Shown here one piece after another: positions 4,577-41,213 of a stretch of DNA of 41,213 nt. Source of the DNA: a virus; the IMG/VR virus record IMGVR_UViG_3300037833_000023, positions 1-41,213 of that record; one strand, written 5' to 3'. Under the pieces are notes generated by a model. The model worked only from the letters and a program-made list of their open reading frames with translations, was not told where the DNA came from and did not search any database. Within the stretch, counting starts at the first letter, position 1. Each line of letters starts with the position of its first letter. Made by a program: the position numbers and the translations under genes.

Positions 4577-5158
4577 TCAGCGCCCCGAGTACTGATCCGG
4601 CGTCAGTCGCACGACTGGCACCCGCGCGCCGCTCTGCGTGATGGCGGCGAAGCGCTGCAGGAACATCTGCCGAGCCAGGTGGGGCGCCACCGGAAAGACC
4701 TTTCCCGGGATAGGCTGGATGCCAGGAATGCGTTCCCACTCCCACTCGTCGTCGTGGGCGGGCATCAGGTCGCGCTGCTCAGTTGCCAGCATGATCAGGT
4801 CAGCCTGCTTTACGCAGGCGGGTAGATCTGCCGACAGGCCGAACCTGGCCAGCACCGCCCTCTCGACTCTCTTCTCGATGACCTTGTAGTCGGGCAGCAG
4901 CTGCTTCAGGGGCGCGGCGACGTCGCCGATGAACGCCTCGGCCGCATCGTGCAGGAGGCCGGCCAGCGCGTGCTCGGGCGGCACCAGGAGCGACACCAGC
5001 ACTGAGTGCTGCGCCACGCTGTAGAACTCGCGCGTGTGGCCGGCGTACCGGCATATATGCGACAGCGCGTGAGCCACTTCCTGGATGCCGAACTCGCTGG
5101 TCTCCGGCGTGAGGAAGTTGAAGTAGTGGCCGCGCGAGGTAAGGATGTCTGGACGCAT
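4577..5158 (-). CDS. HD-domain phosphohydrolase (YfbR-like)
   Basis: 193 residues. The HD metal site is visible as AQHS (first His), AGLLHDAAEAFIGD (His-Asp pair and downstream Glu/Asp) and KQADLIML (distal Asp), the order typical of YfbR-type 5'-nucleotidases and related phage HD proteins. It probably removes phosphate from deoxynucleoside monophosphates or a signalling nucleotide. An AGGA Shine-Dalgarno precedes the ATG. In an early transposition operon it could adjust nucleotide pools or counter nucleotide-based defence; both are inference. The substrate cannot be read from sequence. Confidence 0.88.
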   Translation of the reverse strand: MRPDILTSRGHYFNFLTPETSEFGIQEVAHALSHICRYAGHTREFYSVAQHSVLVSLLVPPEHALAGLLHDAAEAFIGDVAAPLKQLLPDYKVIEKRVERAVLARFGLSADLPACVKQADLIMLATEQRDLMPAHDDEWEWERIPGIQPIPGKVFPVAPHLARQMFLQRFAAITQSGARVPVVRLTPDQYSGR

Positions 5159-5166
5159 GGGAATTC

Positions 5167-5403
5167 CTAGATGTCGGTCGGTCCGATCCGGACCAGCAGC
5201 TGGCGCACGGGCGTGTTCGGCGCGTCGGGCCCGACCGCGAAGCGCTTGCAGCCACCATCCGGCGCCACGAAGAAGTGGCCCAGGCTGCAGCGCAGGCGCG
5301 CGTCACGCGGCTCCCGGTGGGTGCAGTAGCGGCACCGGCTCTCAGGGGCGCTGCTGCGCTCCACGTAGCCCAGCGCCTGCATGGCGTTGCGGATGCTGCT
5401 CAC
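5167..5403 (-). CDS. Small Cys-rich protein downstream of Gam
   Basis: 78 residues from a GTG that overlaps the gam stop codon (GTGA); the longer frame is a shadow of gam. Cysteines in SRCRYCTHREPRDARLRC and APDGGCKRF make a CxxC plus two further Cys, a likely single zinc site. The segment LRCSLGHFFVAPDGGCKRF resembles small zinc-bound phage proteins annotated only as hypothetical. An alternative start is the internal Met (MQALGYVERS). Function unknown. Confidence 0.65.
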   Translation of the reverse strand: MSSIRNAMQALGYVERSSAPESRCRYCTHREPRDARLRCSLGHFFVAPDGGCKRFAVGPDAPNTPVRQLLVRIGPTDI

Positions 5404-5915
5404 TGGGCGGTCTGCTCGAAGGGAGAGATCACGAAGTCTTCGACGCCCGTCACCAGGGAGATGCCGGCCACGCCGCGCACCTGGTCGGGCTCGTTCAGGA
5501 TGGCCTCCTTGTTGACCTCTTCCTTCGTCCGCACGAACTTGGCCAGGCCCAGGCGCTTGAGGGCTTCGATCACGGCCTCGGCGCCGCGCACTGTGACGCT
5601 GGGCGGGCGCTGGCGCCACTGCACCTCGCCGGTAACGAAGTTCGCGGTCTTGACCTTGCCCTCGTTCGTCAGCTCGTGCCGGTGGGCCTCGCAGTAGGTC
5701 TGCACGCCCAGCTGCAGCGTCTCGATGCGCTCGGTCAGCTGCTCCAGCTTCGGCTGGTAGCGCTTCGTGATCGCCGCGATCTCGTCGTTCATGTCGGCCT
5801 GCGTACGCGTGATGTCGCGCTGCAGGTCGCCCAGCTTCTTGATGTCGCCAGCGCAGTCGGTCTGGGTCTGGGGGGCGTAGGTCTGCGCCTTCGCCTTCAG
5901 TTTCTGTACAGCCAT
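5400..5915 (-). CDS. gam: Host-nuclease inhibitor Gam
   Basis: 171 residues, close to Mu Gam (174). Family features: N-terminal helical coiled-coil region (KKLGDLQRDITRTQADMNDE and onwards through ERIETLQLGVQTYCEAHR), the strand segment NEGKVKTANFVTGEVQWRQR, PPSVTVRG, and ALKRLGLAKFVRTKEEVNKE. Mu Gam is a Ku-like dimer that binds linear DNA ends and blocks exonuclease. That protects incoming or excised phage DNA. A GGGAG Shine-Dalgarno lies six bases from the ATG. Its stop overlaps the next gene's GTG. Confidence 0.95.
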   Translation of the reverse strand: MAVQKLKAKAQTYAPQTQTDCAGDIKKLGDLQRDITRTQADMNDEIAAITKRYQPKLEQLTERIETLQLGVQTYCEAHRHELTNEGKVKTANFVTGEVQWRQRPPSVTVRGAEAVIEALKRLGLAKFVRTKEEVNKEAILNEPDQVRGVAGISLVTGVEDFVISPFEQTAQ

Positions 5916-6690: not shown

Positions 6691-7631
6691 GCCCGTTCTC
6701 CCAGCTGGTCCAGCCACGTCAGGTTGCCGGCCAGGAAGCGGGCGAGCTGCACCGTGTGGGCCGGCTTGAACTTGATCGTGAAACCGTCGCCGCAATCCAG
6801 CGCCAGCTCACCGCGCGAGTTCAGCGCTGTGACCGGGTCCGTCGCTTCAATGGTGATGGGATCCACGTCCGCGACGGCCTCCACCAGGTCGCGGAACGCT
6901 TGCGGCTCCGTCGCCGAGGGCTGCGGGCCCGGCGAAGGGCTCTGAGCGCCTGCCCAGCCGAGGCTTTCCGCCCGCTGGTTGAAGGCGCGCTCCAGTTCGC
7001 CCCCAACTCGTTGGCCCGAGGCCCCTGCGCGGGCCGAGGCGCTGCGATCGCCGCCAGCCGAGGGCTTGGGTGCTGCCACCACGATCGGGCCCGGCGTGGC
7101 CGGCGCCACGGGGCCGACGTTGGCTGTCGGCGCCACGGTCGCTCCCTGGCAAGCGGCAAAGTCCTCGTCGGTCAGTCCGCCATCCAGGCGGTAGTCGAAC
7201 TCGGACACGACGCCCCGACGCACGGCAACGCGGGTGAGCTTGGACCTGGCGTGCAGCGGCGCCAGTGCCGCGTCGACCACGGCCGGCTGCAGCTGCAGGA
7301 TCTCGGCGATCGCGCTGCTGCTGTGGACCTTGCCATTGCGCAGTACCTTGGCAGCCGCGCGGGCGGTGGCCACCGGATCCTCGTCCGTGCGGGCGATCGA
7401 CTTCTCGTGGCCTTGGCGGTAGGCGTCGGCACGCTCCTGTGTGTCGAAGTAGCGGCTGTGCTGCCCTTCGGGCTTGGCGCGAAAGATGTGCCCCGCTTCC
7501 ACGTAGCGCGTGATGCACGCGCCGGCAGCGGTGGCGCTTAACTCGGCAGCCTTTGCCAGATCGCCATTGCTGAAGCCTTCCGGTCGGGCGGCCAACTGCA
7601 GCGCACGATTGAGAACCGCGGGACGGCTCAC
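6687..7631 (-). CDS. Large early protein with two winged-helix modules
   Basis: 314 residues from a GTG overlapping the upstream stop (GTGA). Module 1, roughly residues 5-60 (AVLNRALQLAARPEGFSNGD, LAKAAELSATAAGACITRYV), is a winged helix. Module 2, roughly 85-140 (AAKVLRNGKVHSSSAIAEIL, QLQPAVVDAALAPLHARSKL), is a second. A low-complexity Ala/Pro/Ser linker joins a C-terminal part (DGFTIKFKPAHTVQLARFLA) that looks like a compact interaction domain. No specific family name recognised. Two DNA-binding modules and a flexible linker suggest a scaffold or replication/transposition accessory. Confidence 0.75.
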   Translation of the reverse strand: MSRPAVLNRALQLAARPEGFSNGDLAKAAELSATAAGACITRYVEAGHIFRAKPEGQHSRYFDTQERADAYRQGHEKSIARTDEDPVATARAAAKVLRNGKVHSSSAIAEILQLQPAVVDAALAPLHARSKLTRVAVRRGVVSEFDYRLDGGLTDEDFAACQGATVAPTANVGPVAPATPGPIVVAAPKPSAGGDRSASARAGASGQRVGGELERAFNQRAESLGWAGAQSPSPGPQPSATEPQAFRDLVEAVADVDPITIEATDPVTALNSRGELALDCGDGFTIKFKPAHTVQLARFLAGNLTWLDQLGERA

Positions 7632-13892: not shown

Positions 13893-13952
13893 CTGTGCTA
13901 ATCTGAAAAAGCACCACACCCGCCTCTGAGGCCGACACGCGTCGGCCTTATT
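13893..13952 (+). repeat. 60-bp duplicated non-coding element, copy 1 (promoter/hairpin-like)
   Basis: Same-length, near-identical sequence recurs at 22107-22166. Order: TGTGCTAATCTGAAAAA (an extended -10-like TGnTANNNT), then GCACCACACCCGCC, then a perfect 8-bp stem AGGCCGAC / GTCGGCCT with loop ACGC and the tail TATT. The stem could end transcripts of the repressor unit or act as an attenuator about 25-40 nt after a promoter. It precedes the lysis/packaging block. The region 13879-13982 holds nothing else. Confidence 0.75.
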
Positions 13953-13982
13953 CATTTCGCGTTGCCCTCGCACAGTGCGGGG

Positions 13983-17676: not shown

Positions 17677-19214
17677 TGATCAAGAGTGCTTGGGGCAGCC
17701 TGCTGGCCCGTGTCGGGTTCGGGCAACTGGAGGGCGACCCGGTGAGTGCAGCCACCGCGCCGGCAGTGCAGGAGCGCCTGGTCGAAGCCGTCGGCACTCA
17801 GTCCGAGGACGAGGCTGGCTGGACCCGGCTCACAGGCGACGGGCTGGGCCGCTACAACCAGCGCGACCTCACGCCCATGAACCAGGAGCGCATGGCTAAG
17901 CTGGCCGAGTTCCTGTGGCAAAGCAACACCCTGGCCAACCGGCTGATCGAGCTGCCGCTGGCCTACCTGACAGCCGAGGGCGTCAGCCTGCAGTGCGAAC
18001 ATCCAGAGCACCAGAAGCTGCTGGACGCCTTCTGGAACGATCCGATCAACAACTGGCCGCTGAAGCTCCCGGCGCGCGTGCGTGCGCTGGCGCTGCTCGG
18101 TGAGCAGTGCTACGTGATCAACGCCAACAGCGGCAACGGCTTCGTGCGCCTGGGCTACCTGGATCCGCGCCAGATCGGCCAGGTTGTAATGGACCCGGAC
18201 AACCCGGAGCAGGCGATCGGCGTCATCACCAAGCGCGACGCCAGGGGCAAGTACTGGAAGTACCGGGTTGCAGTGCTGGGCGACGACCCCGAGCTGTTCA
18301 GCGCACGCACGGCCAAGATCCGGGCCGAAGACTTCACGGACGGCGAGTGCCTGCTGTACCAGGTCAACAAGTTCCCGGACGGCAGCCGCGGGCGCAGCGA
18401 CCTACTGGGGCAGATGGACTGGCTGGACGCTTACGACAACTTCCTCTTCGACGAGATCGACCGCATCTCCTTCCTGCGCCGGTTCGTCTGGGACGTGACG
18501 CTGAAGGGGGCCGACCCCGAGATGGTGAAGAAGTTCGACAAGGAGTTCAAGGCGCCCGAGCCGAACAGCAAGTTCGTGCACAACGACTCGGTCACGCTGC
18601 AGGCAGTCAGCCCCACCCTACAGGCGGCCGACACAAGCGAAAGCGCCCGCCTGCTGCGCAACCACGTCCTGGGCGGCGCCACGGTACCCGAGCACTGGTT
18701 TGGCGGCGGCGGCGACGTAAACCGCGCCGCTGCCAGCGAGATGGGCGAGCCCACCTTCAAGATCTACACGGCGCGCCAGAGCATGCTCAAGATCATGCTG
18801 GAGGAGATCGGGCGCCTGGTGCTGTGGAAAGCCACCAGCACGAACGAACCGAACTGGGGCGACGAGAAGTGGAAGGTGACGGCCGTGTTCCCGGAGTTGG
18901 CCAACAAGGATCTGACCAAGTTCGCCGCGGCCATGAGCCAGGTGGCCACCACGGTGGTGCTGCTGATCGACAACGGCCTGCTCACCCAGGAGCGCGGCCT
19001 CAGCCTGATCGCCGACGTGGCCGGCCGCTTCGGCCAGCAGATCGACGCGGCCGACGAGTTGGCCAAGGCCCGGCTCGAACACGAGCAACGCAAGAAGGAC
19101 CGGGCTGCAGCCGACAGCTTTAACCTGCCTGCGGACCTGCGTGACGCGCTGAAGGACGGCAAGGCTGGCGCGAGCCCGGCGCCGGCACCTGGTGAACCCG
19201 CAGCAAGCGTTTGA
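17676..19214 (+). CDS. Portal protein
   Basis: 512 residues. Family features: LTPMNQERMAKLAEFLWQSN, NRLIELPLAYLTAEGVSL, LLGEQCYVINANSGNGFVRL, LDPRQI, EHWFGGGGDVNRAAASEMGE, then ISFLRRFVWDV. It forms the dodecameric ring at one head vertex. The ATG sits at the terminase stop (TGATGA). The C-terminal tail is low-complexity and overlaps the next gene by 23 nt. Confidence 0.9.
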   Translation: MIKSAWGSLLARVGFGQLEGDPVSAATAPAVQERLVEAVGTQSEDEAGWTRLTGDGLGRYNQRDLTPMNQERMAKLAEFLWQSNTLANRLIELPLAYLTAEGVSLQCEHPEHQKLLDAFWNDPINNWPLKLPARVRALALLGEQCYVINANSGNGFVRLGYLDPRQIGQVVMDPDNPEQAIGVITKRDARGKYWKYRVAVLGDDPELFSARTAKIRAEDFTDGECLLYQVNKFPDGSRGRSDLLGQMDWLDAYDNFLFDEIDRISFLRRFVWDVTLKGADPEMVKKFDKEFKAPEPNSKFVHNDSVTLQAVSPTLQAADTSESARLLRNHVLGGATVPEHWFGGGGDVNRAAASEMGEPTFKIYTARQSMLKIMLEEIGRLVLWKATSTNEPNWGDEKWKVTAVFPELANKDLTKFAAAMSQVATTVVLLIDNGLLTQERGLSLIADVAGRFGQQIDAADELAKARLEHEQRKKDRAAADSFNLPADLRDALKDGKAGASPAPAPGEPAASV

Positions 19215-20109
19215 AGCGGCACTGCGCGAGCGCCTGCGCGAGCGCGCCGCCCTGATCCTCGGCACCGACCAGGCCGTGGTGGCGGAGCTGCGCCAGGCGC
19301 GCGAGCAGATCCAGCAGGTGCTGGCCGGCCAGCCGGCCGATTGGGAGCGCTGGCAGCTCACGCGGCTGCTGGAGCAGCTGCAGGCGGTCCTCGAAGGTGC
19401 CACAGGCCGCGCCGCCACTGCGGTGGACGTGGGCCTGCGCGCTGCCTGGCAGCAAGGCGAAGACCTGGTCGACAAGCCGCTGGGCGCGGCGGGCCTGAGC
19501 GTGGAGCTGCAGCTGCCGGTGCTCGATGCCGGCGTCCTGGGGAACCTGCGGCGCTTCACCGCGCTGCGCCTCAAGGACGTGGGGGTCGAGGCTTCCAGGA
19601 AGATCGGCAACCAGCTCAGCCTGGTCACCGTTGGCGCACGCACGCCGTTCCAGGCGATCAAGGCGGTGCAGGAGACCCTGGGCAATGAGAGCCCCCAGCG
19701 CGCCACCACCATCGTGCGCACCGAGGTGGGCCGGGCCTTCGCGATCGCCAGCTTCAAGCGGCTGCAGCAGGCCGCGGCGCTGGTGCCGGGCCTGAAGAAG
19801 CAGTGGCGCCGCAGCGGCAAGATCCACAGCCGCTGGAACCATGACGCCGCGGACGGCCAAGTCCAGGAGGTCGACCAGCCGTTCGTGCTGCCAGGCCACC
19901 AGGGTCCCGTGAAGCTGATGCACCCGCACGACCCGCAAGCGCCGGTGGAGGAGATCATCAACTGCGGCTGCCTAGCGGTCCCCTACCGCGACACCTGGAC
20001 GGTGATGACGCCCGGGGCCAAGCCGTTCTCGAAGCTGGAGCTGCAGCAGGATCCGCGCAAAGCCGCCATTGACCAGGCCGCGCAGCGGGCAGGTATGCGC
20101 CAGAGTTAA
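19192..20109 (+). CDS. Head morphogenesis protein (Mu F / SPP1 gp7-like)
   Basis: 305 residues. It has the helical N-terminal region (RLRERAALILGTDQAVVAEL), TTIVRTEVGRAFAIASF, and the Cys/His-containing C-terminal motif (KQWRRSGKIHSRWNHDAADG, ... EEIINCGCLAVPYRDTW), as in Mu F-type minor head proteins. The GTG start lies inside the end of the portal gene. Probably a minor head component helping start assembly at the portal. Not preceded by a good Shine-Dalgarno, so coupling is likely. Confidence 0.9.
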   Translation: MNPQQAFEAALRERLRERAALILGTDQAVVAELRQAREQIQQVLAGQPADWERWQLTRLLEQLQAVLEGATGRAATAVDVGLRAAWQQGEDLVDKPLGAAGLSVELQLPVLDAGVLGNLRRFTALRLKDVGVEASRKIGNQLSLVTVGARTPFQAIKAVQETLGNESPQRATTIVRTEVGRAFAIASFKRLQQAAALVPGLKKQWRRSGKIHSRWNHDAADGQVQEVDQPFVLPGHQGPVKLMHPHDPQAPVEEIINCGCLAVPYRDTWTVMTPGAKPFSKLELQQDPRKAAIDQAAQRAGMRQS

Positions 20110-20216
20110 AGCGTCTCCGGTTTTAGGGCCGCCAAGGCCCGCGAAGCCTGAGGACTGCCGCTGCCCCCAGGAAAGAAGTTAAAGCGAAGTTAGGCCCCCG
20201 CAATTGCGTCGGAGGG
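20110..20216. other. Non-coding gap at the left edge of the inserted cassette
   Basis: Contains a weak hairpin (GGGCC / GGCCC), the motif GTTAAAGC twice (20105-20112 and 20178-20185), GCGAAGTTA at 20184-20192, and the 10-bp palindrome CGCAATTGCG at 20199-20208. GCGAAGTTA recurs at 20701-20709, so the short repeat flanks the minus-strand gene. No promoter is convincing. Confidence 0.5.
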
Positions 20217-20636
20217 CTATGGAAGAGCTTCTGCCTCGGTCGCCAGGGCGTCGTTCATCGCCAAGGTCGAGTACCGGCCTGTAACTATCTCGCGGACGGT
20301 CGCCGGGTCGATCCGCCACTTCTCAGCGACGACTTTCGGGTCTGCGCCCTCTCGAACTTGCTGTCTGATACGCAGGAGTTCGGGCGCCAGCAGCTTGGCG
20401 CGGAAGTTCCGCGGTGCGAATTGGATGGAGCGCCGCTCGTATCCGAGCTGCTCGTAGGCGATGCGCGAGGCCGCGGAGGAGTAGGCCCCGCGCAGGAGAT
20501 CCTTCAAGCTGGCCACGGCCAGGCCTTTCTTGGTCCAGTCCGCGAGCAGCTGCTCGAAGCACTCGCCCGCGGTGAAGCGTTCGAGGTAGGACTTCAGCGC
20601 CTCGGGGGAAAGCGCCTGGTGGCGGCTACGTGGCAT
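20217..20636 (-). CDS. Helix-turn-helix-like protein, antisense to the late genes
   Basis: 139 residues from the ATG (MPRSRHQALSPEALKSYLER). The C-terminal ADPKVVAEKWRIDPATVREI then VTGRYSTL reads as a helix-turn-helix; the centre is helical (YSSAASRIAYEQLGYERRSI). It is the only minus-strand gene right of the repressor. A TTG 15 codons upstream is less likely. It is divergent from the two HEPN-like genes, with 93 nt between. A regulator or antitoxin of that pair is a reasonable but unproven guess. Confidence 0.7.
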   Translation of the reverse strand: MPRSRHQALSPEALKSYLERFTAGECFEQLLADWTKKGLAVASLKDLLRGAYSSAASRIAYEQLGYERRSIQFAPRNFRAKLLAPELLRIRQQVREGADPKVVAEKWRIDPATVREIVTGRYSTLAMNDALATEAEALP

Positions 20637-20729
20637 TGGGGCAGTGTATTCGTCAAACCACCCACTCCGCCGATGGTGCAATGCTTTCGCAACGACCCCA
20701 GCGAAGTTAAAGTTACAGCAGGAGAGGCA

Positions 20730-21239
20730 ATGGACAATATCGAAACGCAGCTGCGCATGGCCGACCGGCTAGACGCCATCTCGAAAGCGGTGGGCTACTC
20801 GCTCTGGGCTCTGCAGGGCCTGGAGCATGCGACCGCCCAGATCTACGTGATGATGGCTCTGGCAACCCCTGGCATGGGTGTGGAGGCTGCGAAGCCATTG
20901 CTGGACGACGCCATGTCTAAGACCTTCGGGTCCACCGTCAAGAAGGCGATCCGCGCAAACCTGTTTCCGCCGCCTCTGGCGCAGCGCTTCGAGGCGCTTT
21001 TGGCGGAGCGGAACTGGCTGGTCCACAACTCGCATGACGAGAGCCGGTCTGCGGTCCACCAGGATCGAGCCTGCACCCAGGTCATCGCGAGAGTTGAAGC
21101 GATCGCCAAAGAGGCGGGCGCGCTGATGACGGAACTGAACGTCCTCGGCATGGCGTTCGTCGTCAAGCACGGGAAAAGCATGAACAGGGTTATGGACATC
21201 GCGGCGCAGACACTAACCGAATGGCGCCACCGCGACTAG
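20730..21239 (+). CDS. HEPN-like protein (RNxxxH), insertion cassette
   Basis: 169 residues, mostly helical. LLAERNWLVHNSHDESRS contains Arg94-Asn95-x3-His99, the RNxxxH form of the Rx4-6H motif that marks HEPN-domain proteins, many of them RNases in toxin-antitoxin and abortive-infection systems. AGGAG precedes the ATG. It lies among head genes but does not resemble any structural protein. It is followed after 27 nt by another Rx4H protein. Domain call is from motif and helical context only. Confidence 0.75.
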   Translation: MDNIETQLRMADRLDAISKAVGYSLWALQGLEHATAQIYVMMALATPGMGVEAAKPLLDDAMSKTFGSTVKKAIRANLFPPPLAQRFEALLAERNWLVHNSHDESRSAVHQDRACTQVIARVEAIAKEAGALMTELNVLGMAFVVKHGKSMNRVMDIAAQTLTEWRHRD

Positions 21240-21266
21240 GACAGCACCATCTGCCGCCGCTTCGAG

Positions 21267-22082
21267 ATGAACCCTCCAGATGAAAAGCCACCTGCCCCGC
21301 GGCTAACGCTGGGCACTGCAACACCTGAGCAGCTGGCCGCGGCCGTCGCATCCGTGTTCTCGCGGCCGGAGTTTCTTGCTCGCATCCGCGACCTGAACGA
21401 GCGCTGGGCGCTCGTGGGTAAGGCGTTCCGTCGGCTCGAGATGCTCGGATCCGCCCTCGTGCAGGTAGGTTCCGCGATCCCTCACCAGAAAGGCCTTGAG
21501 TCCAGTGTCGAACAGGTGCGCGCCCTGGCGAACCTGAACTGGTACATGGATCTCGAATTGCCCTGGTCGGTGTTCCAGGACGCCGGCGAGGCGGCCTGCC
21601 GCGAGGACATCCAGGAGGCGGATCGCATCATGGCGGAGCATTTTGAGTCCCGCTATGCAGAGGTACGTCAGCAGCTGCACGACCGCCTTCCTAAGCGGTG
21701 GCCGGTGCTCGGGCTCGCCTTTGCCGCACACGAACGTGGCGACTATGGCCTCGCCATTCTGGCATTCCTCAGCCAGGCGGACGGCCTGAGCCGCGAATTA
21801 CGAGAAGGCTATTTTTTCGCCCGCACCCGCGGTGCCGGCCAACGGGCGACGGCAAGCTACGCCGCGCGTAACGCGCGCACGGACGCCGATTGGCTGGTGT
21901 TCGCGGCGCTGGAGGCGAAGCTGGCCATCATGGACAACCTGACTCCCAGCACACCTGATGACGGCTCCCTGAACCGCCATGCCGTGATGCACGGTGAAGC
22001 CGTGAACTACGGGAGCCGCACCAACAGCCTCAAGGCCCTGTCGCTTCTGCACTACGTGGCCGTGACGGCGGAAAGTTCCTGA
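21267..22082 (+). CDS. Second HEPN-like protein (Rx4H), insertion cassette
   Basis: 271 residues. The C-terminal LNRHAVMHGEAVNYGSRTNS then LKALSLLHYVA contains Arg237-x4-His242 and the N-R-H-x3-H-G context seen at the end of many uncharacterised HEPN-type helical proteins. The N-terminal DLNERWALVGKAFRRLEMLG region is helical. It has only a weak Shine-Dalgarno and probably depends on the upstream gene. No structural role is suggested. Likely a cassette partner of the preceding gene; RNase activity is inference. Confidence 0.78.
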   Translation: MNPPDEKPPAPRLTLGTATPEQLAAAVASVFSRPEFLARIRDLNERWALVGKAFRRLEMLGSALVQVGSAIPHQKGLESSVEQVRALANLNWYMDLELPWSVFQDAGEAACREDIQEADRIMAEHFESRYAEVRQQLHDRLPKRWPVLGLAFAAHERGDYGLAILAFLSQADGLSRELREGYFFARTRGAGQRATASYAARNARTDADWLVFAALEAKLAIMDNLTPSTPDDGSLNRHAVMHGEAVNYGSRTNSLKALSLLHYVAVTAESS

Positions 22083-22106
22083 CGCGCCGCGCGCTCAACT
22101 CGCGCC

Positions 22107-22166
22107 CTGTGCTACTCTGAAAAAAGCAGCACACCTGCTCTAGGGCCGACACGCGTCGGCCTTATT
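22107..22166 (+). repeat. 60-bp duplicated non-coding element, copy 2
   Basis: Matches copy 1 in order and nearly all bases: TGTGCTACTCTGAAAAAA, GCAGCACACCTGC, then the identical stem-loop GGCCGACACGCGTCGGCC and TTATT. By eye roughly 53 of 61 aligned positions agree, with one inserted and one deleted base. Here T-rich sequence continues (TTATTTCTTT), making a better terminator. It separates the HEPN-like cassette from the capsid block. No similarity lies upstream of the -10-like box, so the element itself is what was conserved. Confidence 0.75.
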
Positions 22167-22201
22167 TCTTTGCGAGCTCAGCAGCAAAGTTCGCTCCTCA
22201 C

Positions 22202-22227: not shown

Positions 22228-22563
22228 ATGAAATCCGCACGTCTCGCAGTCCTGATCGCCGGCCTCGGGGCCATCTGCATGTCGCCCGAGCCCGGTGCTG
22301 CCGGAGGCGGCCCGACGACCACACCTCAAGGCGCCACCTCCGGCGCAAAGGCCATGACGGCCGCGGACGCAGCCAAGCAGGTCAAGCGCCCGGTCACCAC
22401 TCGCGAAAAAGCGGGCACCGATGGCGAAGGCAAGGCCGTCTACAAGGACGTGACCAAGCACGTGGCGGTAGCCGCCTCCGAAGTGCTGGACTTCAAGGAC
22501 TACGGCTCGCACGTGGTCGTGGTCACCAAGGACGGCAAGAAGTTCAGCTCGGCCGAGGAGTAA
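22228..22563 (+). CDS. Small capsid-operon protein, hydrophobic N-terminus
   Basis: 111 residues. After a hydrophobic start (MKSARLAVLIAGLGAICMSP) comes a low-complexity Gly/Pro/Thr/Lys part and a small beta-like C-terminus (DFKDYGSHVVVVTKDGKKFS). AGGAG precedes the ATG. Genes of this type are commonly seen just upstream of the protease or capsid gene in Mu-like siphophages, without a known role. The N-terminus resembles a signal peptide but with no convincing cleavage site or lipobox. Function unknown. Confidence 0.75.
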   Translation: MKSARLAVLIAGLGAICMSPEPGAAGGGPTTTPQGATSGAKAMTAADAAKQVKRPVTTREKAGTDGEGKAVYKDVTKHVAVAASEVLDFKDYGSHVVVVTKDGKKFSSAEE

Positions 22564-22569
22564 GTCGGC

Positions 22570-24987
22570 ATGAAGCTCGCCCTCCTTGTCGCTGCCCTGG
22601 CCGCCTCCGGTGGCCTGCAGGGCCGCGACTTGATCGACACCCACATGCGCGAGGCGCAGAAGACGCCCGAGCGCGACTTCCGCTCCCTGATCGACATGGC
22701 CAGGGGCGCCGTCGACCAGGTCGTCAACGCCGGCAAGATGCCCGGCGAGCGCCGCTACGTCTCCATCGAGGCGATGTACAGCGACCGCATCGTGATCGAG
22801 CTGGACGGCAAGCACTGGCAGTACGCCTACAGCCTCAAGCCGGTCAACGGCGTCGAGACGATGGTGCTGGAGTCGCCTGTCCAGGTGGTGAACCAGTTCG
22901 TGGCCGTGGTCACGCCTGGCGCCACCACCAGCGCCAAGCTGGCCGAGGCACTGCGCGGCATGGAGGCCGGCGAGGTCGCCCTGGTGGAGGCTCAAGAAGG
23001 CTGCATCCAGGTCACGATCATCAAGGCAGGCGCCAGCGGCAACAACAACTACTACCCCGACTCGGTGCTCAAGGAGGCCGTGCCGATGTTCGAGGGCACC
23101 CGCGTCTTCACCAAAAGCGACGCGGAGCACATCAAGGGCGGCGGCAAGGACGTCCGCAACCTGATCGGCGGCATCTACGACGTCAAGTTCGTCGAAGGAA
23201 CCGGGCCTGACACCGGCAGCCTGGTCGGCACCTTCAAGGCGCTGGATCCCAAGGACTCCGTCGTCACCAAGATGGTCGAGGCTGTCCGCCGGGGCATGCA
23301 GAACCTGCTGGGCCTATCGATCGACGCCGATGGCAAGACCAAGAAACGTGTGCAGGGCAACAAGACCCTGCGCGAAGCCGTCAAGTTCACGAAGGTGAAC
23401 TCGGTGGACCTGATTGTCGAACCGGGCGCTGGCGGCGGCCTGGATCGTTTGACCGAAGCCGCTGCCGAAACTCACCAAGGAGAAACGACCATGCCCCTGT
23501 GGAAACAACGCCTGCTGGAGGCCATCAAGGCCAAGGACGCAGCCAAACACGCGACCATAGATGCCGCCACCATCGGCGACGACGACCTGGTCAAGCTGGC
23601 CGAAGCGATCGGGATCTCCGTCGTCGCTGCCAACGCCGACCGTCTCACAGAGGCGCAAGGTGACAACGCGCCCGTCACCCGCGCCGAGCTGCAACTGCTG
23701 CAGCTGCGCCAGACGGCCGCCACGCGCATCGCCGCGAGCAAGCTGCCCCAGCCGGCCAAGGACCGCCTGCAGGCCGACTTCGCCGGCCGCGAGCGCTTCG
23801 TCGAGGCCGACATCGACTCCGCTGTCAAGGCCGAAGGCGACTACCTGGCCCGCTTCACCGAAAGCGGCACCGTCCGCGTGCCGACCTTCGGCGCCGGCAG
23901 CATCCAGGTAGGCGACCGCAGTGTGGCCATCAAGGACATGCTGGACGCGTTCTTCGACCCGTCCCATGCCAACCACCGCGATGTGCGCTCGTTCAAGGAG
24001 TGCTACATCGAGATCACGGGCGACCGCCGCGTGACGGGCTTGATGGCCAACGTGGACCGCTCGCGCCTGGCTGAAAGCCTGGGCGACGCGTACCGCGAAG
24101 CGATCGATAGCTCGACCTTCGCGGACGCACTCGGCAACAGTATCACCCGCCGCATGCAGGCCGTGTTCACGGGACTGACCGACCTGCAGGCCTGGCGCAA
24201 GGTGGCCGTGGTCGGCCAAGCGAACGACTTCCGCAGCCAGGAGCGTGTGCGCATCGGCGGCTACGGCAACCTGCCGGCCGTCGCCGAGAGCGGCGCCTAC
24301 GCGGCGCTCACCTCCCCGGGCGACGACAAGGCGACCTACGCGGTCACCAAGCGCGGCGGCACGGAGTCCGTGACGCTGGAGACGATCAAGAACGACGACG
24401 TGCGCGCCATTCGCCAGATCCCGCAGGAGCTGGCCCTGGCCGCGGCCAACACGCTGTACGAGTTCGTGTTCGACTTCTTCCGCACGAACCCGAACGCCTA
24501 CGACGGCACGGCGATCTACCACGCCTCACACAACAACCTGTTCACGGCCGCCCTGGACGCCACCGCCTTCGCGGCCCACCGCCTGGCGATGGTCAAGCAG
24601 ACGCGCGCCGGCAGCTCCAAGCGCCTGGGCATCAGCCCGAAGAGCGTCCTGGTGCCGTTTGAGCTGCAGGAGACGGCCTACAACCTGTTCGTGCGCAACC
24701 AGAACCTGGACAAGACCTACGTCCAGTCGATCAACCCGGAAGTGATTCCGGTGTCGTACTGGACCGACGCGAACGACTGGGCGACGGTCTGCGACCCCAT
24801 GGTGCTGCCGGTGCTGGAGATCGGCTTCCTGGACGGCAAGGAAGACCCGGAGCTGTTCGTCCAGGACATGCCCAACGTCGGCTCGCTGTTCAGCAACGAC
24901 AAGATCACTTGGAAGATCCGCCACATCTACGGCGGCTCCGACCTGGTGGATGGCTACAAGGGCACGACCAAGGCGGTCGTCGCCTAA
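22570..24987 (+). CDS. Prohead protease - scaffold - major capsid fusion protein
   Basis: 805 residues. Residues 130-290 form a serine prohead protease: His187 (SDAEHIKGG), Ser250 (LGLSIDADG) and Asp280 (VNSVDLIVEPGAGGG) are the probable catalytic residues, with NNYYPDSVLKEAVPMFEGTR as landmark. About 308-460 is helical scaffold/delta-domain. About 465-805 is an HK97-type major capsid fold (RVPTFGAGSIQVGDRSVAIK ... VIPVSYWTDANDW). GAGGAG lies nine bases before the ATG. An internal ATG with its own AAGGAG (see next entry) probably supplies the bulk of capsid. The fusion order protease-scaffold-capsid is directly read. Confidence 0.9.
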   Translation: MKLALLVAALAASGGLQGRDLIDTHMREAQKTPERDFRSLIDMARGAVDQVVNAGKMPGERRYVSIEAMYSDRIVIELDGKHWQYAYSLKPVNGVETMVLESPVQVVNQFVAVVTPGATTSAKLAEALRGMEAGEVALVEAQEGCIQVTIIKAGASGNNNYYPDSVLKEAVPMFEGTRVFTKSDAEHIKGGGKDVRNLIGGIYDVKFVEGTGPDTGSLVGTFKALDPKDSVVTKMVEAVRRGMQNLLGLSIDADGKTKKRVQGNKTLREAVKFTKVNSVDLIVEPGAGGGLDRLTEAAAETHQGETTMPLWKQRLLEAIKAKDAAKHATIDAATIGDDDLVKLAEAIGISVVAANADRLTEAQGDNAPVTRAELQLLQLRQTAATRIAASKLPQPAKDRLQADFAGRERFVEADIDSAVKAEGDYLARFTESGTVRVPTFGAGSIQVGDRSVAIKDMLDAFFDPSHANHRDVRSFKECYIEITGDRRVTGLMANVDRSRLAESLGDAYREAIDSSTFADALGNSITRRMQAVFTGLTDLQAWRKVAVVGQANDFRSQERVRIGGYGNLPAVAESGAYAALTSPGDDKATYAVTKRGGTESVTLETIKNDDVRAIRQIPQELALAAANTLYEFVFDFFRTNPNAYDGTAIYHASHNNLFTAALDATAFAAHRLAMVKQTRAGSSKRLGISPKSVLVPFELQETAYNLFVRNQNLDKTYVQSINPEVIPVSYWTDANDWATVCDPMVLPVLEIGFLDGKEDPELFVQDMPNVGSLFSNDKITWKIRHIYGGSDLVDGYKGTTKAVVA
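23491..24987 (+). CDS. Nested scaffold-major capsid protein from an internal start
   Basis: 498 residues in the same frame as the fusion, starting MPLWKQRLLEAIKAKDAAKH at codon 308. AAGGAG lies eight bases upstream, among the best Shine-Dalgarno/spacing in the window, which is not needed for reading through. This suggests that most capsid subunits are made without the protease domain, and a small amount of fusion supplies the protease. Final maturation would cleave the scaffold part. Needs protein evidence; the start is inferred from the ribosome-binding site. Confidence 0.72.
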   Translation: MPLWKQRLLEAIKAKDAAKHATIDAATIGDDDLVKLAEAIGISVVAANADRLTEAQGDNAPVTRAELQLLQLRQTAATRIAASKLPQPAKDRLQADFAGRERFVEADIDSAVKAEGDYLARFTESGTVRVPTFGAGSIQVGDRSVAIKDMLDAFFDPSHANHRDVRSFKECYIEITGDRRVTGLMANVDRSRLAESLGDAYREAIDSSTFADALGNSITRRMQAVFTGLTDLQAWRKVAVVGQANDFRSQERVRIGGYGNLPAVAESGAYAALTSPGDDKATYAVTKRGGTESVTLETIKNDDVRAIRQIPQELALAAANTLYEFVFDFFRTNPNAYDGTAIYHASHNNLFTAALDATAFAAHRLAMVKQTRAGSSKRLGISPKSVLVPFELQETAYNLFVRNQNLDKTYVQSINPEVIPVSYWTDANDWATVCDPMVLPVLEIGFLDGKEDPELFVQDMPNVGSLFSNDKITWKIRHIYGGSDLVDGYKGTTKAVVA

Positions 24988-25136: not shown

Positions 25137-25829
25137 ATGGCCTTCGCAGACTTCCAGACCCTCGTCGACAAGATGGTCCGCGCCCCTGGCGGCACGGAAA
25201 CCATCTCGACGGCCGACCGCGACCAGGCGATCGAGCTGGCGCGCCTGCGTTACAGCGCCGACTGCGAGCGAGAGTTGGTCGAGGACGTCGCCTGGGCCGC
25301 GGACGGCTACTTCGCGCCGCTGCCGGCGGGCTGGGTAGACGGCTGCTACATCAAGCAGGCCGAGTTCCCGATCGGCGAGCAGCCCGCGGCCCTGGTCGCC
25401 CTGGCGATCTACGGCACGCCCAGCGACCAGCAGCTGGTGACCGAAGACGCCCTGCAGGCCGGCGACCTGGTGCGGGTCACCTATGCGGCGCCGCACCTGC
25501 TGAGCGATGACCCCGCCGCGGACACCATCCCGGCCGTTCACCGCGAGGCAGTCGCCAGCTACGCGGCCAGCCTGCTGTGCGGCCAGCTGGCCGCCCACTA
25601 CAGCGGCGAGCGCGAGACCTCGATCAACGCTGACGGCAGCAACACCGAAAGCCGCAGCCGTAACTTCGCCTTCCGCGCCAAGGACTACAGGGCCGCCTAC
25701 TACGCCGGCATCGGCAAGGCGGATCCGCGCGGTGACAAGGGCCAGGCAGTGGCCGGCGACCCCGCGGCCAGCGTCAGCAGCTGGACAGGCCGCCAGCGCA
25801 GCACCTTCGGTCGGGAGAGCCTGCTGTGA
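25137..25829 (+). CDS. Head-tail connector-like protein
   Basis: 230 residues. DFQTLVDKMVRAPGGTETIS, DQAIELARLRYSADCERELV, then EAVASYAASLLCGQLAAHYS resemble the helical connector (adaptor) proteins that follow the major capsid gene in Mu-like and other siphophages. The C-terminal tail is Ser/Thr/Arg rich. No good Shine-Dalgarno is seen (the leader is CCCACCCAC). The assignment leans on synteny and helical pattern. Confidence 0.75.
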   Translation: MAFADFQTLVDKMVRAPGGTETISTADRDQAIELARLRYSADCERELVEDVAWAADGYFAPLPAGWVDGCYIKQAEFPIGEQPAALVALAIYGTPSDQQLVTEDALQAGDLVRVTYAAPHLLSDDPAADTIPAVHREAVASYAASLLCGQLAAHYSGERETSINADGSNTESRSRNFAFRAKDYRAAYYAGIGKADPRGDKGQAVAGDPAASVSSWTGRQRSTFGRESLL

Positions 25830-40376: not shown

Positions 40377-41213
40377 ATGAGCAAGACGACGGATGAGCCG
40401 GGCGAGACCGGCATGGTGTTCGATGACGCGGTGATGGGAATGGGCCTGGGGGCGCAGCCGATCATTCCCTGGGTGGGTGGCAAGCGCCGCCTGGTGGCAG
40501 AGATCCTGCCGTGGTTCGAGCCACATACGTGCTATGTGGAGCCGTTTGCAGGTGCAGCGGCTTTGCTCTTTAACAAACAGCCAAGCAAGGTCGAGGTGCT
40601 CAACGATGTGAACGCCGACCTGGTCAATCTGTACCGCGTGGTGCGTCACCACCTCGAGGAGTTCGTGCGGCAGTTCAAGTGGGCGCTGACCAGCCGAAAG
40701 CTGTTCGAGTGGGCGCAGGCCACGCCCGCGGAGACCCTGACGGACATCCAGCGCGCGGCTCGCTTCTTTTACCTGCAGAAGCTCGCCTTCGGCGCCAAGG
40801 TGCAGGGGCAGACGTTTGGGGTGGCCACCACGGCCAGCCAGGCGCTGAACCTGCTACGGATCGAGGAAGACCTCAGCGCGGCCCACCTGCGGCTCTCCAG
40901 GGTCGTGATCGAGCACATGGACTGGGCAGCCTGCATCGCACGCTACGACCGGCCGCACACGCTGTTCTATTGCGACCCGCCTTACTGGGGCACCATGGGA
41001 TACGGCGTCGGCTTTAGCCTGGAGCAGTACGACCGCATGGCCGAGCTGCTGCGCACAATCAAGGGCAAGGCGATCGTCAGTGTCAACGACATCCCGCAGA
41101 TGCGCCTGGCCTTCAAGGGCCTGACGATCCGCAGGCTGGCTATCCGGTACACGGTGGGCAGCTCAGGCCAGGGCCGCGGTGAAAAGGGCGAGCTGCTGAT
41201 CAGGAACTGGTGA
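40377..41213 (+). CDS. DNA adenine methylase (Dam family, D12 class)
   Basis: 278 residues. PWVGGKRRLV is the SAM-binding FxGxK-type motif, YVEPFAGAAALLF is motif I, and YCDPPYWGT carries DPPY, the catalytic N6-adenine signature. GEKGELLIRNW closes the protein. Predicted to methylate adenine in phage DNA to avoid host restriction. Mu carries the unrelated mom modification gene at this right-end position. The first ATG is preceded by a weak leader; an internal ATG (MGLGAQPIIPWVGG) remains possible. The stop ends the window. Confidence 0.92.
   Translation: MSKTTDEPGETGMVFDDAVMGMGLGAQPIIPWVGGKRRLVAEILPWFEPHTCYVEPFAGAAALLFNKQPSKVEVLNDVNADLVNLYRVVRHHLEEFVRQFKWALTSRKLFEWAQATPAETLTDIQRAARFFYLQKLAFGAKVQGQTFGVATTASQALNLLRIEEDLSAAHLRLSRVVIEHMDWAACIARYDRPHTLFYCDPPYWGTMGYGVGFSLEQYDRMAELLRTIKGKAIVSVNDIPQMRLAFKGLTIRRLAIRYTVGSSGQGRGEKGELLIRNW

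Follow-up and report, generated by a model that had tools for sequence, protein, structure and literature searches.

Accessory cargo between the MuF and capsid genes of a D3112-type phage: an HTH gene and two HEPN-type candidates with a plausible role in exclusion

Phage-borne HEPN proteins are an already known kind of biology. Those carried by prophages act as abortive-infection RNases, a well-documented example being Tha, a defence RNase of 301 aa from Staphylococcus aureus phages whose motif, R265NSIMH270, is C-terminal (PMC11087260). HEPN motifs follow the rule R-x4-6-H, with a polar residue after the arginine, and DUF4145, DUF86 and DUF4209 are HEPN families (PMC3710099). A different cargo is found in D3112-type phages, where the accessory region RGP G holds anti-CRISPR genes (Cazares et al., PMC4378225). 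In JBD30, the gene order is portal, MuF, gp34, acrF1, aca1, head maturation protease and capsid. The cassette described here lies at a place equivalent to the acrF1-aca1 locus of this phage, with the MuF region on one side and the protease/capsid genes on the other. It resembles the acr-aca loci of the JBD30/D3112 type by its slot, by the combination of accessory genes with an HTH gene and by a high turnover. It differs from them in that its plus-strand genes are larger and of putative HEPN type, and in the orientation of its HTH gene, which is on the opposite strand, whereas aca follows acr on the same strand.

The DNA under study (the window), a virus record 41213 bases long, was assigned to a D3112-type transposable phage because its large terminase shares 64% identity with those of DMS3, D3112 and JBD30, Mu-like phages of Pseudomonas. 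At the right end of the window, an open frame (40377-41213) resembles Dam-type adenine methyltransferases (VGGKRRLVAEILPWF). The left neighbour of the insertion is a MuF-type head morphogenesis gene (19192-20109, plus strand; PHROG head morphogenesis, E 1.3e-25), with relatives of 48-77% identity in six phage contigs. The right flank starts with a small head-operon gene (22228-22563, plus strand), for which relatives of 61-64% identity are present in contigs L024, L026 and L027, and continues with a protease/scaffold-capsid protein of 805 aa (22570-24987, plus strand; Pfam Phage_capsid_4, E 6e-41; PHROG major head and protease / head maturation protease). This single gene fuses a protease-like N-terminal part, matching the PHROG head maturation protease, to a capsid C-terminal part. 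Three genes are found between these flanks, P0001 on the minus strand (20217-20681), then P0002 (20730-21239) and P0003 (21267-22082), both on the plus strand. The first-pass annotation had described the same three open frames, with a divergent HTH gene; their coordinates and strands were confirmed, and the HTH gene matches phrog_517. The third-position GC of the three genes is coding-like (0.76-0.82) and stays below the values of the adjacent phage genes (0.87-0.92), consistent with imported cargo.

Accessory cargo makes up the region 20110-22107 and occupies an insertion slot used recurrently in Mu-like (D3112-type) phages, at the point where the late operon running from lysis to MuF ends and the protease/capsid operon begins. 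A survey based on the capsid protein provided 80 contigs, some of them near duplicates, and a MuF gene was also present upstream in 64 of them. The MuF-to-capsid interval, measured between aligned ends and thus approximate, varies in these 64 relatives from 378 bp to 4050 bp (the longest, in L104), against 2461 bp in the window. Several slots are essentially empty, with 378 bp in L127, 441 bp in L121-L123 and 495 bp in L112. P0001, P0002 and P0003 are absent from the slot in all 64 relatives, and likewise from the slots of phages retrieved via the MuF protein; no match to the cassette DNA or to its proteins was found in the phage collection. Since the slot is empty or otherwise filled in relatives, the cassette is an insertion between head genes, as had been proposed from the sequence, with MuF on its left and the protease/capsid genes on its right. 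The comparison with related phages, suggested at the time as a test, also shows that these genes are not conserved parts of the head module, and the empty slots led to the rejection of a head-part identity. A restricted version, in which decoration or assembly proteins would be specific to this phage, could appeal to the location of the genes between head genes and on the late strand, as well as to the capsid decoration genes found at nearby positions in Mu-like phages (PMC4378225). It is nevertheless extremely improbable, considering the relatives with the same flanks and an essentially empty slot, and the relatives of both proteins on plasmids and of P0002 in chromosomes.

The cargo found in the slot of related phages is diverse. 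In L026, where MuF is 76% identical, the slot contains an HTH gene, an IrrE-type peptidase and a small protein; the HTH and IrrE pair is seen again in L027, on the other strand, and an HTH gene with an IrrE-type peptidase in L102 and L129. The slot of L024 carries the PADLOC candidates PDC-M18A (E 1e-111) and PDC-M18B (E 9e-70). In L152, the sole cargo is a 206-aa protein with the motif RNTIVHG (4880-5500, minus strand), likely another HEPN protein, so that a HEPN-type motif occurs at this slot in an unrelated protein as well. Further unclassified cargo, in the interval before the capsid gene, was seen in L118, L134, L142, L144, L145 and L104 and includes, with names given by sequence impression, a ParA-like ATPase, a large membrane protein, a DUF2786-like protein and others. 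Because this is the anti-CRISPR slot, a counter-defence role keeps some standing: P0002 and/or P0003 would block a host defence, and P0001 would be an Aca-like repressor. The position is exactly the one taken by acrF1-aca1 in JBD30 and by the anti-CRISPR genes in D3112-type phages, and the HTH gene adjoins P0002 and P0003. Such a role is unlikely, however: invariant Arg/His motifs of catalytic type and the HEPN profile of P0002 are unexpected for a binding inhibitor, the chromosomal and plasmid relatives are without an adjacent HTH gene of the P0001 type, and the strand of P0001 is not the one that aca1 of JBD30 would predict.

The same comparison bears on the borders of the insertion. The GCGAAGTTA repeats, reported by the first-pass annotation to flank the HTH gene, are indeed present at 20184 and 20701, with a third site at 25661 on the minus strand, for a chance expectation of 0.07; as cassette borders they are not supported, the left copy belonging to a backbone element. 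Directly after the MuF stop, a AGTTAAAG / GAAGTTAAAGCGAAGTTA element (20104-20195) has TTTAAA/GTTAAAG sites that recur at comparable places in L026, L024 and L027, and its equivalents in these contigs (6914-7010, 6943-7020 and 6942-7020, respectively) precede different cargo. This element is part of the phage backbone and is probably regulatory. Past the MuF stop, one TTTAAA/GTTAAAG-type site is followed by two others about 11 bp apart; the sites occur irrespective of the cargo and probably constitute a backbone binding element. The left GCGAAGTTA copy belongs to this post-MuF AGTTAAAG/TTTAAA-type element; as the element is also associated with other cargo, the left repeat, at least, is not specific to the HTH gene. 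The right copy (20701), in the region before P0002, may be an operator. It is contained in the divergent intergenic region (20637-20729), with GCGAAGTTAAAGTTA at 20701 and a Shine-Dalgarno sequence, AGGAGAGG, for P0002, and this region is presumed to act as promoter and operator. No match to the sigma-70 promoter consensus was found near the cassette genes, and expression in the lysogen is therefore an assumption.

A duplicated 60-bp element had been thought to close the cassette. The duplication is real: the copies (13894-13957 and 22108-22171) have 88% identity over a 34-nt core (13924/22138), the first being situated ahead of the lysozyme gene and the second ahead of the head-protease operon. 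The right copy (22108-22171, plus strand) forms the right border of the insertion and comprises TGTGCTANNCT, a small inverted repeat, and a terminator hairpin GGCCGACACGCGTCGGCC with a T run. As L026, which is without the cassette genes, has the duplicated element at the same two backbone places (215 and 8924), the element belongs to the backbone and not to the cassette, and marks the end of the insertion. In L024 and L027, the hairpin only is found, at both equivalent places. The late promoters of Mu are lys, I, P and mom (PMC4461284). The two copies would be placed at the lys and I promoters, and the element may be a late-promoter/attenuator element of this phage group.

The divergent gene, P0001, matches phrog_517 ('HTH DNA binding protein', E 1.3e-7) over residues 62-137, that is by its C-terminal half. 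Its start could be the TTG at 20681 (154 aa) or the ATG at 20636 (139 aa). Searches of phages, plasmids and viral contigs turned up no relative of P0001 over its full length. By its position, P0001 is a candidate autoregulator or antitoxin.

The first of the plus-strand genes, P0002, encodes a 169-aa protein in which the RNWLVH motif announced by the first-pass annotation is present at residues 94-99, just as NRHAVMH is at residues 236-242 of P0003. With R94, the polar N95 and H99 (R94-N95-x3-H99), P0002 conforms to the HEPN motif rule, and ERNWLVH is invariant in its 7 relatives. P0002 itself has no Pfam match to DUF4145 or HepT, and its link to these families is made through its relatives and by profile-profile comparison: Pfam DUF4145 is matched by 5 of 7 members of the family (best E 4.6e-4), 2 of 7 being HepT-like. 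A comparison by hhalign of the P0002 profile with HepT, taken from proteins of the same order, gave a probability of 80 and a score of 37.5, against 24.1 for the best of 60 column shuffles and 13.8 for the reversed control. This similarity spans about 100 residues, and the RN-x2-VH motif of DUF4145/HepT (PF13643, PF01934) is in register with that of P0002. DUF86 is taken here to be the HepT type. On the basis of this profile comparison, there is good reason to regard P0002 as a probable HEPN protein of the DUF4145/HepT-like kind. The AF2 model, built with four sequences in the alignment, is a helical bundle (pLDDT 78). Its structural matches include 2hsb (Z 7.2) and HepT entries (Z 6.0-6.6), tied with unrelated bundles, so that Z alone proves little; HEPN/HepT-type entries account for 11 among the 50 matches listed, with a HEPN Z of 7.2 or lower.

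A Thauera plasmid, genomes of Zoogloeaceae and Thiobacillus, and one phage contig carry relatives of P0002 with 36-44% identity. Only 4 of 399 genomes of the order carry one, a weak one with a stop included, and the gene is thus sporadic. In Thiobacillus, the relative is located between a PDC-S05-like gene and a gene of the AlbA_2/RecG-C type, followed by a MmeI-like type IIG restriction enzyme. In phage L022, it is part of a plus-strand group embedded in capsid and head-tail genes of the minus strand, and a DNA methyltransferase is encoded close by. P0002 itself gave no convincing match to the PADLOC defence models.

The second gene, P0003, encodes a helical, HEPN-like protein of 271 aa and is a member of phrog_28904 (E 8.5e-16), a phrog of unknown function. 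The best-conserved part of the family is its ending, LNRHxVxHG...Y...NSLKA, which contains the C-terminal motif of P0003 (LNRHxVxHG, R237-H242). Among 17 relatives with 20-34% identity to P0003, the R-x4-H and the following G are invariant without exception, and R is followed by H or N, as in HEPN motifs (PMC3710099). The AF2 model has a confident helical core; the motif region is of low confidence (pLDDT <50 at 181-246). The best viral fold match in BFVD is a phage DUF4209 protein (E 5e-4, prob 1.00, TM 0.47, 19% identity). This family (the C6orf70-type HEPN family, PF13910) shares with P0003 the R-[NH]-x3-HG ending and is its nearest viral fold, but no significant sequence-profile match supports the resemblance; the P0003 profile likewise gave nothing significant against HepT, DUF4145 and a DUF4209 sequence. 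In a second look at the PDB, the top match was 1ufb (Z 4.2), presumably a HEPN protein. A HEPN fold, suggested by the invariant R-x4-H and by weak structural matches, is plausible but unproven for P0003. The initial proposal of two HEPN proteins is therefore well founded for P0002 and rests for P0003 on that motif and on those matches. The structure prediction that had been recommended gave HepT/HEPN entries among the matches of the P0002 bundle, and nothing significant in a Foldseek search of the PDB with either model.

The relatives of P0003 are found on plasmids of Cupriavidus, Xanthomonas and Burkholderia, mostly conjugative, and on 12 IMG/VR contigs. In the P2-like phages L010, L015 and L016, which are of a different phage type from the window, the relative is a single gene inserted between tail-completion and baseplate-assembly genes, the PHROG test of these tail neighbours having been made on L016. 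We assume this to be the classical P2 moron site. In L008, the relative is convergent with the portal and terminase genes. In L013 (4739-5662) and L014 (7546-8442), it is followed by a possible partner, a protein of about 300 aa that has CxxC pairs and CRFCGKRPPEVTFRKIAHAIPQS (HNH-like). Members of the P0003 family gave no convincing match to the PADLOC defence models. Compared with Tha, P0003 is similar by its architecture only, both being prophage-borne proteins of about 270-300 aa with an uncharacterised N-terminal part and a C-terminal HEPN-type site, R237HAVMH242 in P0003. Their hosts and genome positions differ, and no Ith-like immunity gene was recognised beside P0003.

The two plus-strand genes are separated by 27 bp and, from this spacing, are probably co-transcribed. 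The proposal that they form a pair was not borne out. A mutual relatedness was ruled out by hhalign (prob 0.3%), P0002 was not found on five plasmids bearing P0003, the hypothetical gene nearest to the P0002 relative on the Thauera plasmid is not P0003, and no second locus with both genes was seen. As the two are never together elsewhere and their sequences are unrelated, they would represent two acquisitions with a common promoter region, and they are probably independent proteins, not a two-part enzyme. When used as single-protein queries against viral contigs and genomes, P0001, P0002 and P0003 gave no confirmed hit; the relatives of P0002 and P0003 surfaced only via alignment-based or plasmid searches. 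A PDB sequence search with both profiles gave chance helical matches only. The candidate pEK499_p136 was rejected as the family, with one member found. These data also bear on a toxin-antitoxin (addiction) module that would stabilise the prophage, with one of the HEPN proteins as toxin and either P0001 or the remaining plus-strand protein as antitoxin. In its favour, HepT-like toxins belong to the HEPN proteins, P0002 has HepT/DUF4145 as its nearest families, and the two plus-strand genes are a short distance apart. However, the MNT nucleotidyltransferase, the usual partner of HepT as in HepT-MntA, is absent beside P0002 (no Pfam match in P0001 or P0003, and the flanks are head genes), the HTH gene is divergent, and no partner gene is common to the relatives of P0002 and P0003. 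This module is accordingly about as doubtful as a counter-defence role.

The best explanation overall, which we hold with moderate confidence, is a slot cargo composed of an HTH regulator and two HEPN-type proteins acting as abortive-infection RNases that protect the lysogen. As far as can be judged from sequence, the cassette is most likely used to shut out rival viruses. An exclusion or defence role is plausible because the same slot carries PADLOC candidates and HTH and IrrE pairs in related phages, and because the Thiobacillus relative of P0002 has a restriction-modification neighbourhood. In the lysogen, P0002 and P0003 would be transcribed from the divergent region before P0002, at a low level maintained by P0001, and the proteins would wait as inactive, metal-independent RNases. 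Upon infection by another phage, a trigger, either a phage protein or the loss of a host factor, would switch on the Arg/His site, probably located at a dimer interface. RNA would then be cut and the cell would stop before progeny is made, the lysogen population of the prophage being protected by abortive infection. Against this lysogenic scheme, P0002 and P0003 share the orientation of the late operon, and their expression could take place late in lytic growth instead. It is improbable that the cargo is neutral or decaying, or that its HEPN proteins are degenerate and act only as binding proteins. The pairing of regulator and effector is not conserved with either family and P0001 has no close relative, as would be expected in that case, yet the open frames are intact with coding-like codon use, and the residues of active-site type are kept across 20-44% identity.

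P0002 and P0003 represent two HEPN-type families that lie outside the PADLOC models, and the P0003 family connects insertions in unrelated phages and plasmids. We tentatively propose, as a serious possibility that may well need revision, that P0003 (phrog_28904) is the founding member of a so far undescribed HEPN defence family that extends over insertion slots of D3112-type and P2-like phages and conjugative plasmids, and that the anti-CRISPR slot of Mu-like phages is a general hotspot of attack and counterattack, where HEPN RNases, IrrE-HTH pairs, PDC-M18 and anti-CRISPRs are swapped. The slot survey is a more useful product than the HEPN cargo itself. Indeed, aligning the MuF and capsid genes and reading what lies between them constitutes a cheap route for the discovery of phage-borne defence and counter-defence genes, and the 64 contigs already display both the empty and the filled versions of the slot.
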